This document shows, piece after piece, positions 45,252-59,890 of a DNA stretch of 64,000 nucleotides. The notes below the pieces were generated by a model that did not search any database, had not been told where the DNA came from, and was given only the letters and a program-made list of their open reading frames with translations. The DNA is from Cryobacterium sp. PH31-L1 (GTDB lineage: Bacteria; Actinomycetota; Actinomycetes; Actinomycetales; Microbacteriaceae): contig NZ_JASISM010000004.1 of the NCBI RefSeq assembly GCF_030063145.1, positions 248,001-312,000 on the forward strand, in the 5' to 3' direction. Made by a program: the position numbers and the translations under genes. Each line of letters opens with the position of its first letter. The first letter of the stretch is position 1.

Positions 45252-46247
45252 CTAGTGCGCCGTCGGGTTCGCGGCCCTGAGGGCGGTCAGCAGGGCCGCG
45301 GCGCCCTGCGGGTCGTCGACGGTCACGGCGAACTGGTTGCCCCGCCGCAGATTCACCACGAGGGCCGGCCCGCCACGCATGACCACGGCAGAGCGTCCGC
45401 CGGTCAGGCGGTATCCCCAGCCACCGGATCGCAGCGGACTCACGGCATCGGCGAACGCGGACTCCATCTGGTCGAGCGGCACCTGCTTCAAACGGATGCC
45501 GAGCAACCGCGACACGACGCGCAGCCCACGTTGGTCAACGCTCACCCGAACCTGCACGAAGAGCAGCGTGACCAGGAAGATGAGAACGACAATCGCCGCC
45601 GCCATGGCGCTCGCCGAGGTCGCACCGGTCAGCCCCTCATCGCGCAGTTGGGCTACGATTCCGATGGCCCCGCCGACCACGATGAGCCCGCCGATCGCAG
45701 CCATGACCGGGCTCGTCACGACTTTGCTCCAGGTTGCGTCGGGATCGGCTGTCGCTGTCGCGGAGGAAGTCTCCGGGAGTTCCGTTACGGTCGCCGGGGT
45801 CACCCATTTCTGGGCAATCAGAAACGGCAGCAGACCATACCCGCAGGCGGCGAAGGTGAGCAGCACCCAGGCGCCCATTTTCGGTTCCGCAGGGCCGGCA
45901 GCGACGGTGATGCCGGCCGTGGTCAGCCACAGGCTCGACGACAACCCCGCCGCGGAACCGAGCCCGAGATAGATCTGGCGGCGATTGGGCGCACCTCGCT
46001 CGCGGAGCCAGTAGGTGGCCAGAATTGCGGCGCCCAGACTCACCACGAGCGCGACCACGGCCATTCCCCAGGTGGGCATCGTCGAGCTCACCGCGCCATC
46101 ACGCCCCCACTGCCGTGGCAGCACGCCCGGCAGGCGATCGATCCACAATAGCCAGGTGACGACGGCCGCCACGAATGGCACCCACAGAGTCAGTGCCGCA
46201 GCGATATCCCGCGGGCTGGTCGGTGCCGAACTGTTCACCAGTGTCAT
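45252..46247 (-). CDS. DUF1648-type membrane protein with PH-like end
   Basis: A 331-residue membrane protein. Its first part has the DUF1648-like segment WLLWIDRLPGVLPRQWGRDG; four to six helices follow. The C-terminal 100 residues form a soluble PH-like domain (VRVSVDQRGLRVVSRLLGIRLKQVPLDQM). Function unknown; it may be a membrane or cell-wall stress protein. The ATG at 46247 has GGGGGAC just upstream. The longer open frame begins in the promoter. Confidence 0.7.
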   Translation of the reverse strand: MTLVNSSAPTSPRDIAAALTLWVPFVAAVVTWLLWIDRLPGVLPRQWGRDGAVSSTMPTWGMAVVALVVSLGAAILATYWLRERGAPNRRQIYLGLGSAAGLSSSLWLTTAGITVAAGPAEPKMGAWVLLTFAACGYGLLPFLIAQKWVTPATVTELPETSSATATADPDATWSKVVTSPVMAAIGGLIVVGGAIGIVAQLRDEGLTGATSASAMAAAIVVLIFLVTLLFVQVRVSVDQRGLRVVSRLLGIRLKQVPLDQMESAFADAVSPLRSGGWGYRLTGGRSAVVMRGGPALVVNLRRGNQFAVTVDDPQGAAALLTALRAANPTAH

Positions 46248-46491
46248 GAGGTCCCCCCGATCGAGTGCGGGCAGACCAGTCCGCCTTCGCACTCCTTCCA
46301 TCCAAGCACAGACCAGAATCGCCCGAACCAGTGCCGCGCCGCGCATCGGCGGTGCCTCCCACGGTTGTCACCCGAGACCTGATCGCTTGCAAAACATTTC
46401 TTTGGGTATTCTCTTCCGGACTCGGTCGATTTCGGGCATATATGCGTGATTTTTTCTCGGAAATGTCGGTGGTCGGGTGTTGAGTTGAACC

Positions 46492-48180
46492 ATGAACAAC
46501 CTCGCGATGGAGCTCACCCGGGCGGCGGAGGCCGTCGCCGCGCTCGGTTGTTCCAGCGCTTCGTTCAACACCCTGACCGATGCGCAGGTGCTCGCGGCTC
46601 GCGGTCCGATCGCCGACCTGCTGCGACTAAGCAACACGGTCGCGGCTTTCCTGGCCGGAACGATCGCGCAGCGTTCCAGGCACGAGCTGGGTCAGTCCGG
46701 TCTGGCCGTCCGGCACGGGTTCGGTACCCCGACGCTGATGGTGCAAGACGCTACCGGACTCAGCCGTATGGAGGCCGGCCGACTGCTGGCCGTCGGCGTA
46801 CTCATGAACGGCACTGATACCGCCGAACGGCGGGCAGCGGATGCCGCTCGAGAAGCCGAGCGGGTCGCGAAGGCGACCGCCGACGCCCTCGCGGAAGCCG
46901 AGCGCGCAGCCGAGCGGGACGCCGTTCGAGAGGCGGAGCGCGCGGCGGCGTGGGCCACGCTGCACCCCGATCTGCCGCCACTGCCCATGGCTGCGCCCCG
47001 CCCGGTACCGCCCCCGGTTCCCCAGGGTCCCGTGGTGACCGTGGAGCCGGTGGTGGTGCCCTGGCAGGCACCAATTCTGCACGCTGTCACCGCCGGTACA
47101 CTCTCGCCCGGCGTCGGCGACGCCCTACTACGAGGTTTGGGCACACTGGATCAGGCCATCACCGCCGAGACGCTGGCCGCCGCTCTGCGCCTGTTGCTGG
47201 TCGAGATGCCGGGCAAGAACACGGAGCAGGCCTACAAGCGGGCGCGGCGCCTGCGCGACGACCTCGACGCGGCGGGCATCCAGGCTAGGGAGAAGCAGGC
47301 CCGCGATGACACGACCTGGTCGTTGTGGCGGCGCGCCGACGGCATGGTCACCCTGCACGCCCTGTTGGCTCCCGAGCAGGGAGAAACGTGGATGGCCACC
47401 TACGACGCCCTGACCAGTCCAGGTCGCGGCGGCGTGCGGTTCGTTGACCGGGAACGAGCCGAGTGGGCGCAACGAGTGAAGGACGACCCGCGCACCCTGG
47501 ACCAGATCGCCGCGGACTCCTTCACCCAACTGCTCAAGCTCGGCACCGACGCCGACCCGAACACCATGTTCGGCGGGCGCCGCCCGGTCGTGCAAATCAT
47601 CGTCACCGAACCCGACCGCCCCACCACCATCCCCGACCCAACAACCGGCCCGACGGCCGGCCCCGCCGCTGGCCCCGCCCCCGAGGCTGGCCCGGCCCGC
47701 ACCACAGGCCCGGCCCCCGAGGCTGGAACCACGGAGAGCGGCACTACGACCAGCGGCACGTCGGGGAGCCGAACCGCCACATCAGCCTTCGGTTACCTCG
47801 AGGGCAACCCCGCTCCGGTGTCGGCGGAGACGATCGAACGGCATCTCTGTGACACCGGCCACCTCGGAATCCTGTTCAGTCAGTCCGGCCAACCCCTCAA
47901 CGTCGGACGCGACGAACGTCTCTTCAACCGCGAACAACGCCGGGCCCTCGCCGCGCGCGACGGCGGCTGCCGCTGGCCCGACTGCGACCAACCACCCTCC
48001 TGGACAGAAGCGCACCACATAAAAAATGGGTTGATCAGGGACTTTCCAACATCGATTTCGCCATCTCCCTGTGTGCACACCATCACATGCTGCTACACAA
48101 CCGACACTGGACGATCTACCTCCAGAGCGACCAATATTGGCTACAACCCCCGATCGAAATCGACCCCAAACAAACGCTGA
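46492..48180 (+). CDS. DUF222/HNH endonuclease protein, frameshifted near the HNH motif
   Basis: A 562-residue frame. The N-terminal DUF222 domain (about 1-330) includes ARGPIADLLRLSNTVAAFLA and an Ala/Glu-rich coiled coil. A Pro/Thr/Gly-rich linker follows (about 380-425), then the first half of an HNH nuclease (REQRRALAARDGGCRWPDC, then PPSWTEAHHI). After HHIKN the frame runs into unrelated residues and stops at 48180, while the correct HNH continuation lies in the -1 frame. DUF222/HNH genes are abundant in actinobacteria and behave like selfish elements. The start has no clear ribosome site. Confidence 0.75.
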   Translation: MNNLAMELTRAAEAVAALGCSSASFNTLTDAQVLAARGPIADLLRLSNTVAAFLAGTIAQRSRHELGQSGLAVRHGFGTPTLMVQDATGLSRMEAGRLLAVGVLMNGTDTAERRAADAAREAERVAKATADALAEAERAAERDAVREAERAAAWATLHPDLPPLPMAAPRPVPPPVPQGPVVTVEPVVVPWQAPILHAVTAGTLSPGVGDALLRGLGTLDQAITAETLAAALRLLLVEMPGKNTEQAYKRARRLRDDLDAAGIQAREKQARDDTTWSLWRRADGMVTLHALLAPEQGETWMATYDALTSPGRGGVRFVDRERAEWAQRVKDDPRTLDQIAADSFTQLLKLGTDADPNTMFGGRRPVVQIIVTEPDRPTTIPDPTTGPTAGPAAGPAPEAGPARTTGPAPEAGTTESGTTTSGTSGSRTATSAFGYLEGNPAPVSAETIERHLCDTGHLGILFSQSGQPLNVGRDERLFNREQRRALAARDGGCRWPDCDQPPSWTEAHHIKNGLIRDFPTSISPSPCVHTITCCYTTDTGRSTSRATNIGYNPRSKSTPNKR

Positions 48181-48398
48181 TACCCCTGCCCAGCAAGAAC
48201 CCGCTCATGGCCGAACACCTCCGGCCCGACGAGCTTCTACCGACGCCCCCAGCGCCGGCCCCGCAGACAGCCACCCGTCACGAGATGGCGATCTCGACCA
48301 ACGAAACGGGAACGACCCGACACCGGGTCACCCGCACGACGACTGCCAAAACTGAACAGCGCAGCTCCCCGCAGCCGTGCGGCCGGCACCGGCGATAG
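48021..48398 (+). pseudogene. HNH C-terminal part in the -1 frame
   Basis: From TGG at 48027 the -1 frame reads WVDQGLSNIDFAISLCAHHH and continues to a TAG at 48398. It supplies the rest of the HNH metal site (CAHHHMLLHN) and a tail ending in RHRR. The switch point is six A residues forming A AAA AAT (48021-48027). This may be a lost base, a sequencing error in the run, or a true -1 frameshift site. Confidence 0.65.
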
Positions 48399-48481
48399 CT
48401 GCGCGTCCCGGGATCGCGGTCTCGACCGACTCGACCAACGAGACGGAGACGACCCGACACGGGGTCACCCGCACGACGACT
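48293..48481. repeat. 52-base imperfect direct repeat
   Basis: 48293-48344 and 48430-48481 match in 48 of 52 positions, beginning CTCGACCAACGA and ending CACCCGCACGACGACT; the period is 137 bases. The first copy is in the HNH tail and the second after its stop, so a local duplication has occurred at the end of the gene. Confidence 0.75.
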
Positions 48482-48542
48482 ACCTCCCCATGGCCCCCAC
48501 ACCACGTCGTGAATGCACACCCGCCGAAGGACGACGGGATCG

Positions 48543-49289
48543 CTACCGTTTGCGACGGGCGAGGAAGGCATCCATTCGGCTGAACTTGGCCTCCGACTCG
48601 AACAGAATGGACTGGGCCGTGTTATCGACGAGCGGATGCGCCGCTCGGGGAGCATGAAAGACCTCCTTGGCGAGGCGGGTCGCCAGAGGGTCCTGCGCCG
48701 CAATGCGGTCGGCCAACGCGTGCGCGGCGGCCAGCAGGTCGTCGGGGTCGTGCACCTCGGTAACCAGGTGCACGGCCAGGCACTCCGCGGCGCCGAGGAT
48801 GCGCCCGGCCAGGATGATCTCTTTCGCCACCGGCTCCCCCACCAACTCTGCCAGGCGCCAGAGCGCTCCGGCCGCGGGAAGAATACCGAGCGCGGTCTCG
48901 GGGTTGCCGAGCCGGGCGCTCGTCGAGGCGATGCGAAAGTCGGCGGCGTAAGCCAATTCGGCTCCGCCGCCGAGCGCCCAGCCGTCGATCGCGGCGATGA
49001 CCGGCATCGGCAGCTGCGCTATGCGGGAAAACAGCCCGGAGTTGATGCCGAGCAGGGCGTCGTCCCGGCGGCGTTCGCGCAGCTGGGCGATGTCGGCGCC
49101 CGACGCGAAGACGCCGTTCGCGCCCGTGATGATCAGGATGCGCGGCTGCTGCTCGAGCTCAGCGCAGACGGCATGCAGCTCGTCGATCATGGTCTGGTCG
49201 ATAGCGTTGCGCACGTCGGGTCGGTTGAGTTCGACGTGCACCCGGTCGGCGCGGCGTTCAATCGTGAGGGTGATCGGGGTATTCGTCAT
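48543..49289 (-). CDS. Enoyl-CoA hydratase/isomerase
   Basis: A 248-residue crotonase-family protein. The oxyanion-hole segments are FASGADIAQL (about 62) and GWALGGGAELA (about 104-114), with Glu in GGGAELA and in NPETALGILP (about 135), so both catalytic acids of a hydratase are present. Likely a stand-alone hydratase in fatty-acid or amino-acid breakdown. The ATG at 49289 lies nine bases after GGAG. Confidence 0.88.
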   Translation of the reverse strand: MTNTPITLTIERRADRVHVELNRPDVRNAIDQTMIDELHAVCAELEQQPRILIITGANGVFASGADIAQLRERRRDDALLGINSGLFSRIAQLPMPVIAAIDGWALGGGAELAYAADFRIASTSARLGNPETALGILPAAGALWRLAELVGEPVAKEIILAGRILGAAECLAVHLVTEVHDPDDLLAAAHALADRIAAQDPLATRLAKEVFHAPRAAHPLVDNTAQSILFESEAKFSRMDAFLARRKR

Positions 49290-49349
49290 TGCGGACGTCT
49301 CCATTGAGGTCGGTGTTGGGAAGGATGACGGGGGTCGTGTCCAGAACAG

Positions 49350-58374: not shown

Positions 58375-58770
58375 CTATGTGAAGTTCAGGCTGTCTGGAT
58401 CAGCATCGAGGTAATACCATTGGCGGTCAACCTTGAGAAAGCGACTCACCTCATTCTGCTGGCCCGCTATGCCGTCTTCGCGATAGTGCGCTGTAAATTC
58501 CACGACGCCTTCTCTATCAAATAGGCCGCCGCGTTCTGTGCGCACGATATCGAGCCGCCGCCAGGATATCGCCGAGTCGAGTTCGACTGATTGCGGTCGG
58601 GTCAGCGGATGCCAGGTGTGCAGGAGATACTGCGCGTCACCTCGGCAGAAAGCGCTATACCGGGACCGCATGAGCCATTCGGCCGTTGGCGGTACAGCGG
58701 TACCGCTGTGAAAGCGGCCACAGCAGGCGGAATAGGTGTCCCCACTGAGGCAGGGACACCGTGGATCCAG
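58375..58770 (-). CDS. YchJ-family protein without a standard start codon
   Basis: The frame contains the YchJ/UPF0225 N terminus RCPCLSGDTYSACCGRFHSG (the SEC-C-like cysteine set), then WLMRSRYSAFCRGDAQYLLH, and ends in a cystatin/NTF2-like half with YYLDADPDSLNFT. The conserved part begins upstream of the first ATG (58671), yet between it and the lsr2 stop (58794) there is no ATG, GTG or TTG in frame. CTG at 58770 or ATC at 58776 are the closest candidates; I give the CTG. Translation could be coupled to lsr2. Role of the family is unclear. Confidence 0.7.
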   Translation of the reverse strand: MDPRCPCLSGDTYSACCGRFHSGTAVPPTAEWLMRSRYSAFCRGDAQYLLHTWHPLTRPQSVELDSAISWRRLDIVRTERGGLFDREGVVEFTAHYREDGIAGQQNEVSRFLKVDRQWYYLDADPDSLNFT

Positions 58771-58793
58771 CGTGATGGTCTGATCGGGCTCTG

Positions 58794-59135
58794 CTAGGAC
58801 TGCGCCTGGGCGTAGGCCTCGCGCACGGTGCCGGCGATGCGTCCGCGGTCGGAGACGGCGACGCCGTTGGCGGCAGCCCAGGCACGTATGGCCTGAAGCT
58901 CGGCCCGGTTTGAACCGGCCGAACTGGTGCCGCGTGGCTTGGCGGGCACATAGCCAACGCGTCGGGAGACATTCGTGTATGGCTTGATCGCGGCGCGAAA
59001 TTCAGCGAGGTTTTCGGTGGACAGATCAATCTCGTACGATTCACCCTCGAAGGCAAAGGACACAGTTGCTCCTGAGCCATTTTCGATAACGGTGCCGTCG
59101 AGGTCATCCATCAGCTGAACCGTGGTCTTCTTCAT
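58794..59135 (-). CDS. lsr2: Lsr2 nucleoid-associated protein
   Basis: A 113-residue Lsr2, the actinobacterial H-NS-like silencer of AT-rich and foreign DNA. The N-terminal dimerisation domain starts MKKTTVQLMDDLDGT; the C-terminal domain has WAAANGVAVSDRGRIAGTV with the RGR hook that enters the minor groove. The ATG at 59135 is nine bases after GGAG. The upstream 150 bases are AT-rich and hold two ATACATTCG copies (59162, 59177), a possible site for autoregulation. Confidence 0.93.
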   Translation of the reverse strand: MKKTTVQLMDDLDGTVIENGSGATVSFAFEGESYEIDLSTENLAEFRAAIKPYTNVSRRVGYVPAKPRGTSSAGSNRAELQAIRAWAAANGVAVSDRGRIAGTVREAYAQAQS

Positions 59136-59292
59136 TCTGAGATTCTCCAATGAGGTGTCGAATACATTCGGGATGGATACATTCGCCTGTGGCGATAACC
59201 ACTAACGAATTATGGCTGCCCATCTCTTTTTCCGATACCCGCCACGCGGTATTTCTTTTGGATTCACAACTTGTACGATGCGGATCACAAAA

Positions 59293-59321
59293 AAATAGCC
59301 CCGACGATGTCGGGGCTATTT
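59293..59321 (-). terminator. Terminator of tRNA-Ala
   Basis: Perfect 13-base arms AAATAGCCCCGAC/GTCGGGGCTATTT around GAT, with further T residues on the minus strand, 7-10 bases after the encoded CCA. Confidence 0.85.
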
Positions 59322-59330
59322 CATATTTGG

Positions 59331-59403
59331 TGGATCCGAGGGGATTCGAACCCCTGACCCCCTGCATGCCATGCAGGTGCGCTACCAGCTGCGCCACGGA
59401 CCC
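59331..59403 (-). tRNA. tRNA-Ala (anticodon GGC)
   Basis: The anticodon loop ATGGCAT closed by CCTGC/GCAGG gives GGC. The acceptor arms GGGTCCG/CGGATCC contain the G3-U70 wobble that is the identity mark of tRNA-Ala. Discriminator A; the CCA is encoded (59328-59330). Confidence 0.96.
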
Positions 59404-59476
59404 AGATTGTTGTCTCGAATTGCTCCGAAACAACTTTGTTAGCTTACAACACAGATTGGGATCTGCGAAACCGAAG

Positions 59477-59890
59477 CTACTCCGCGACCTCGTCAGAAGC
59501 CTCATCGTCAGCTTCATCTGAGGTCACTTTGGCCGGAATCCCGGTGGGAATGACGGGACAGTCCTTCCACAGGCGCTCCAGGGAATAATACTGGCGCTCT
59601 TCCTCGTGAAAGACGTGCACGACCAGGTCCCCGAAGTCTACGAGCACCCAGCGGCCGGCAGCACGTCCCTCACGACGCAGCGGCTTGTGGCCGGCCTCGA
59701 TGAGCTTGTCCTCAATCTCGCCGGCAATGGCTACAACGTTGCGCTCCGAGCGCCCCGTGACGATGAAAAAGATATCGGCGAGGGGAAGCGGGTTGGAAAC
59801 GTCGAGGGCAACGAGATCTTCGCCTCCCTTGGAGTCGGCGGCGGCGACGGCGATGCTGAGCAGCTCGAGGGCGTGGGGTGACGTGGTCAT
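59477..59890 (-). CDS. rsfS: Ribosomal silencing factor RsfS
   Basis: A 137-residue RsfS/Iojap protein that binds uL14 and keeps the ribosomal subunits apart when nutrients are scarce. Seen: VALDVSNPLPLADIFFIVTG, then RSERNVVAIAGEIEDKL and LVDFGDLVVHVFHEEERQYY. An acidic tail (DEADDEASDEVAE) ends it. AAGGA is seven bases before the ATG. It follows nadD and the repeat protein gene in the usual actinobacterial order. Confidence 0.94.
   Translation of the reverse strand: MTTSPHALELLSIAVAAADSKGGEDLVALDVSNPLPLADIFFIVTGRSERNVVAIAGEIEDKLIEAGHKPLRREGRAAGRWVLVDFGDLVVHVFHEEERQYYSLERLWKDCPVIPTGIPAKVTSDEADDEASDEVAE

Follow-up and report, generated by a model that had tools for sequence, protein, structure and literature searches.

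The window, by which we mean the whole stretch of DNA that was analysed, comprises 64 kb of a 405-kb contig (C28) belonging to a Cryobacterium draft genome of 3.66 Mb in 33 contigs. One of its forward-strand genes carries a DUF222 domain followed by an HNH nuclease motif that is distributed over two reading frames, and this gene lies between two reverse-strand neighbours that are syntenic in C. aureum:

45252..46346, minus strand: upstream neighbour of 364 amino acids, 88% to its syntenic counterpart in C. aureum, with a weak DUF1648 match under the cut-off
46492..48180, plus strand: zero-frame open reading frame of 562 amino acids, with DUF222, then the first HNH half (CRWPDCDQPPSWTEAHHIKN), then residues that do not belong to the family
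47086..47604, plus strand: best-scoring DUF222 stretch (Pfam), residues 199-371 of this open reading frame
48543..49304, minus strand: downstream neighbour, an enoyl-CoA hydratase/isomerase, 97% to its syntenic counterpart in C. aureum

The DUF222 domain scores 46 bits against a Pfam cut-off of 24.4 (E 5.6e-12), and the C. aureum locus shares two further neighbours with the window, a DUF2079 protein (86%) and a further downstream open reading frame (61%). The HNH assignment of the window gene comes from the motif and from the relatives. Among the relatives, the Pfam HNH profile exceeds its cut-off of 21.4 bits in L005 (31), L028 (26) and L032 (21.7), and it stays under the cut-off in L019, L030, L037 and L048, which include nearest intact copies. 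For the intact orthologue, the sole NCBIfam match is far under the cut-off, and there is no PADLOC match, so that an annotation as a defence gene is not supported.

In the zero frame, the first HNH half reads CRWPDCDQPPSWTEAHHI (...EAHHIKN), and the family sequence is left immediately thereafter, with 52 codons following HHI before the stop. The codons ATA AAA AAT at 48019-48027 contain A_AAA_AAT, which is a heptamer of the form X_XXY_YYZ in zero-frame register, and it is in the -1 frame, reading WVDQGLSNIDFAISLCAHHHMLLHNRHW..., that the second HNH half is found; the window copy thus has no complete HNH motif in any single frame. The first 76 residues of this -1 frame match a C. flavum copy at 87%. 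In comparison with near relatives, the first frame change is a net loss of one base within about 48019-48030, and its exact place is ambiguous. The original prediction, made from the letters of the DNA, had described the heptamer at 48021-48027 in the zero-frame register, the resumption of the motif in the -1 frame (WVDQGLSNIDF...CAHHHMLLHN) and a zero-frame end of about 52 unrelated residues, and all of this is borne out. One correction applies to the stretch 48021-48398 that it named: the -1 frame is open to 48398, but it is the family's frame only until about 48246, and what follows is a non-family C-terminus. The features in this part of the gene are as follows:

48021..48027, plus strand: A_AAA_AAT heptamer at the first frame change (sequence and comparison with relatives)
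48028..48180, plus strand: zero-frame tail, out of frame (GLIRDFPTSIS..., from translation)
48027..48246, plus strand: -1 frame with the remaining HNH core (WVDQGLSNIDF...CAHHHMLLHN...NPLMAEHL...), resembling intact copies
48240..48252, plus strand: second net one-base loss, beside a C run (compared with the three nearest copies L048, L050 and L052)
48248..48355, plus strand: C-terminal tail of the family (ADSHPSRDGDLDQRNGNDPTPGHPHDDCQN, then stop) in the third frame (alignment with L048, L050 and L052)
48293..48347, plus strand: 55-nt direct repeat, copy 1 (sequence comparison)
48430..48484, plus strand: copy 2 of this direct repeat (91%), offset by 137 nt

At the second loss near 48246, the sequence contains no X_XXY_YYZ heptamer in register, and the family's tail (ADSHPSRDG...PHDD, with its stop at 48353-48355) is continued in the third frame. 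With a single slip at A_AAA_AAT, the HNH core would be complete again but the C-terminus would stay uncorrected, which means that a single shift there does not yield the full-length protein of the family; the original prediction had missed this second loss, for which one -1 shift is no cure. As the distance from HHI to the stop varies from 64 to 151 codons among the in-frame copies compared, the tail of the family is variable in length, and taken by itself the second loss may do no harm. Copy 2 of the direct repeat lies in a piece whose translation, DQRDGDDPTRGHPHDDYLPMA, is similar to the C-terminus encoded by the syntenic C. aureum gene. In 100-nt blocks beginning at 47792, 47892 and 48092, the window copy is 90-95% identical to the copies of C. 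flavum and C. aureum contig C37, versus 83-88% to the syntenic copy; the blocks beginning at 47992 and 48192 do not show this preference. A recombination between family copies is likely on the basis of these sequence patterns, and copy 2 of the repeat would then be a remnant of it.

What do the relatives look like at the switch point? All named relatives from a protein search belong to Cryobacterium, with C. aureum and C. flavum being closest. The syntenic C. aureum orthologue (L048) has a single open frame of 631 residues, reads HHIKNWADLGLSNIDF and has no run of six A, and an intact syntenic orthologue of this kind is expected for a recently frame-broken copy. The copies nearest in sequence, L052 of C. 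flavum and L050 of C. aureum (contig C37), read HHIKMWSDQG in one frame. Close orthologues that are in one frame and lack the A run are precisely what the original prediction had named as speaking against its proposal of programmed frameshifting.

The family is widespread in the genus, with a match in 56 of 57 genomes, the own genome included (among the matches listed), and it is multi-copy: the own genome alone gave 10 matches, of which some are pieces of one copy. From the fetched loci, we counted 129 distinct copies with a first HNH half; these are a sample of the matches listed, in which copies sharing an identical 150-nt stretch were counted once and own-genome copies were included. Both HNH halves are in one frame in 124 of them, two are shifted to -1 (both in this genome), and in three the second half was not found (L088 and L165, where none is recognisable, and L134, where the match is misplaced). 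L088 (genome G051) and L165 (genome G028) come from other genomes of the genus and have kept their first HNH half. At the switch place, the window copy is the only one of the 129 with AAAAAA, a TGG follows after the next residue in 127, and AAA as the codon before this Trp occurs in none of the copies counted. Of the suggested recent loss of one A, the recent loss thus is the part that fits best, but the lost base need not have been an A, as no counted copy has AAA before Trp and the place of the loss is ambiguous.

The HNH core does not look like an old ruin. Over its 62 codons, Ka/Ks of the window copy is 0.28, 0.24 and 0.21 in comparison with L048, L050 and L052, and among these three intact copies it is 0.29, 0.22 and 0.13. 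When 84 codons are taken, so that the second frame change is inside, the window copy has values of 0.43-0.48, and comparison of the three intact copies with each other gives 0.40, 0.30 and 0.29. As the core is as constrained as it is between intact copies, the losses must be young, and the core must have been under normal constraint until recently.

The best explanation, to which we assign a probability of about 0.73, is that one member of a repeated DUF222-HNH (13E12-type) family has recently decayed through small losses at short runs. One base would recently have been lost in this Cryobacterium lineage just after the HHIK codons, beside the short A run, and another one in the C-terminal tail, beside the C run. 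Ordinary translation would then result in a 562-residue protein that retains DUF222 and is missing the second part of the HNH metal site, and a protein without this part is predicted to be dead as a nuclease. The two frame changes, the intact syntenic orthologue, the relatives counted without the A run and the constrained HNH core are direct observations, and the losses are probably real in the organism and likely to inactivate the protein. Even if nothing is programmed, it is plausible that chance slippage produces traces of a protein with a complete HNH core. The gene would thus be an ordinary frame-broken copy of a repeated family, to be marked in annotations as frame-disrupted and not as a case of recoding.

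It could also be that the gene is intact in the organism and that sequencing or assembly errors at short homopolymers caused the apparent losses; a sequencing error in a homopolymer was the third option of the original prediction. The lost bases lie beside A6 and a C run, the shifted paralogue described below has its switch at a homopolymer (GGGTTTT), and a constrained HNH core would be expected of an intact gene. However, two errors would be needed in the window gene and one more in the paralogue, and the surroundings do not look error-prone. Judged from coordinates, 10 of 287 matched C. aureum genes were flagged in a comparison with the contig, and the window gene is the sole one that is broken into two long pieces; in the other nine, the short piece falls inside residues 1-89, a pattern that would result from starts predicted too far upstream. 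In the reverse direction, 12 of 288 genes were flagged, a few of them with long pieces of up to 144 residues, and some of these may therefore be true frame changes in C. aureum; in a gene set without composition filter, 4 of 55 and 9 of 48 were flagged. An error-rich assembly, considered as the main reading, was not seen across the 405-kb contig, and we regard errors as an unlikely cause. On the minus strand at 58655-59517, the window contains two open reading frames without Pfam match whose C. aureum matches change frame, possibly a further gene that is frame-disrupted or misread.

What speaks most strongly against plain decay comes from the own genome. The close group has four members there, namely the shifted window copy, a second shifted copy on contig C30, a copy on contig C11 that is in frame through HNH, and a relic. 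The relic (C29:35330-35503 of the own genome, covered by L007 and L214) represents the same HNH region, LSNIDFAIMLCAHHHMLLHNR, and its first HNH half is unrecognisable. The second shifted copy is located as follows:

L003:1690-1990, i.e. contig C30 of the own genome (G000), about 315,275-315,575: paralogue with a one-base HNH shift, HNH core complete in the -1 frame

Its zero frame reads HHVENWADLGFPTST, and after GGGTTTT its -1 frame reads SNIDQAILLCVLHHLLLHNRHW. The switch is G_GGT_TTT, again X_XXY_YYZ in register. In each of the two HNH-shifted copies one base is missing, the frame moves in the same direction, and the two sites lie no more than about 30 nt apart in the homologous HNH sequence. 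Both have a perfect in-register heptamer at the switch, in each case at a homopolymer run, and this regularity exceeds what plain decay would lead one to expect. When single-base deletions were simulated in 47 intact copies, which were selected by a stricter pattern than the 129 copies counted above, 51 of the 6003 deletions had an in-register heptamer within reach, as did 3 of the 764 that fell inside runs of three or more. In the case of the window copy the coincidence is a post hoc observation, and the C30 copy provides one fair test. It keeps a frameshifting reading alive, but as both switches are at homopolymers, slippage mutation may explain part of it.

According to this frameshifting reading, ribosomes of this lineage would slip to -1 at A_AAA_AAT, as a programmed event or as a rescue, so that some protein with a complete HNH core is made; a tandem slip would give HHIKNWVDQGLSNIDF, which agrees with the intact orthologue in length and pattern, and the C30 copy would behave likewise at G_GGT_TTT. 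Besides the exact register of both heptamers and their rarity in the simulation, the normal constraint on the HNH core would agree with this. The motif of the window is a rare one: the 313 predicted genes (119,915 codons) of the contig have 192 in-frame X_XXY_YYZ sites, of which 3 are of the type A_AAA_AAN, the window's own one included, and AAAAAAT was observed 3 times on both strands of the window versus 0.72 times expected from shuffles. PMC4066793 reports that 39 of 64 such heptamers shift measurably in E. coli without stimulators, but also that the three best ones, which end in G, reach about 0.3% in E. coli without stimulators, whereas the heptamer of the window ends in T. Shine-Dalgarno (SD)-like elements of the kind used in PMC4066793 are absent from the 30 nt upstream of the heptamer. 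The hairpin that had been suggested downstream was not found either: downstream windows of 50-118 nt, in a test for structures other than pseudoknots, are not folded more stably than shuffles (z 0.85, 0.20, 0.30 and -1.18), the addition of upstream sequence gives z 1.40 versus shuffles, and downstream of the C30 switch the values versus shuffles are 0.64, -0.22 and 0.21. Of the usual features of programmed -1 sites, there is thus the heptamer in register, without conservation (the A run occurs in 1 of 129 copies, and 124 of 129 are in frame) and without a stimulatory SD element or structure. Moreover, there is no heptamer at the second loss near 48246, and even after the slip this loss would keep the C-terminus out of frame. 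Since conservation and detected stimulators are lacking and the gene has a second frame change, programmed frameshifting was rejected as the main reading, and lineage-specific frameshifting or slippage rescue in general appears distinctly improbable to us. Slippage of the RNA polymerase was rejected as well: PMC1088944 describes slippage runs of nine A or T in a large share of genomes and mentions that shorter runs may slip in some bacteria, and the run of the window has six A.

A more specific idea is that the two DUF222-HNH paralogues each gained a -1 site independently, one A_AAA_AAT and the other G_GGT_TTT, at almost the same HNH point for dosage control. Normal translation would then produce a DUF222 protein that is dead as a nuclease, and the complete HNH core would arise from a rare slip, which would limit the dosage of a possibly harmful enzyme in a manner comparable to that of insertion sequences and their transposases. 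We consider this highly improbable. If it were true, it would be a clue to the function of DUF222, which according to Pfam still is a domain of unknown function, and the slippery heptamers at the HNH switch of two paralogues are the one point that deserves a test. That the HNH half was lost by selection or switched off by phase variation while DUF222 was kept is hardly credible, as 124 of 129 copies are in frame and as runs of six A or four T would be short for contingency loci, even though this genome has three complete members of the close group, two of which are shifted within the HNH half after an open frame, and L088 and L165 from two other genomes have no recognisable second HNH half.

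How does this gene compare with known systems? The DUF222-HNH family is of the kind that is called 13E12 repeat in mycobacteria. Like the DUF222-HNH / REP13E12 family of actinobacteria, the gene of the window has DUF222 (PF02720) followed by an HNH motif (PF01844) and many copies per genome, but unlike the family it is frame-broken inside HNH and again in the tail. REP13E12, HNH and DUF222 are named as belonging together in PMC10589994. Judged by titles and the openings of abstracts, we found no literature on frameshifting in the DUF222-HNH/13E12/REP13E12 family. Like dnaX and the genes of the IS3 family with programmed -1 frameshifting, the gene has at its first switch an X_XXY_YYZ heptamer in zero-frame register, but its heptamer is not conserved, stimulators were not found, and the second change occurs without a heptamer. 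Insertion sequence examples of programmed -1 frameshifting are given in PMC4066793. In the pseudogene clusters described in the GeneTack survey (PMC3711429), the frame is lost and the relatives are intact, as is the case here, with the difference that in the present genome a second paralogue has a similar lesion.
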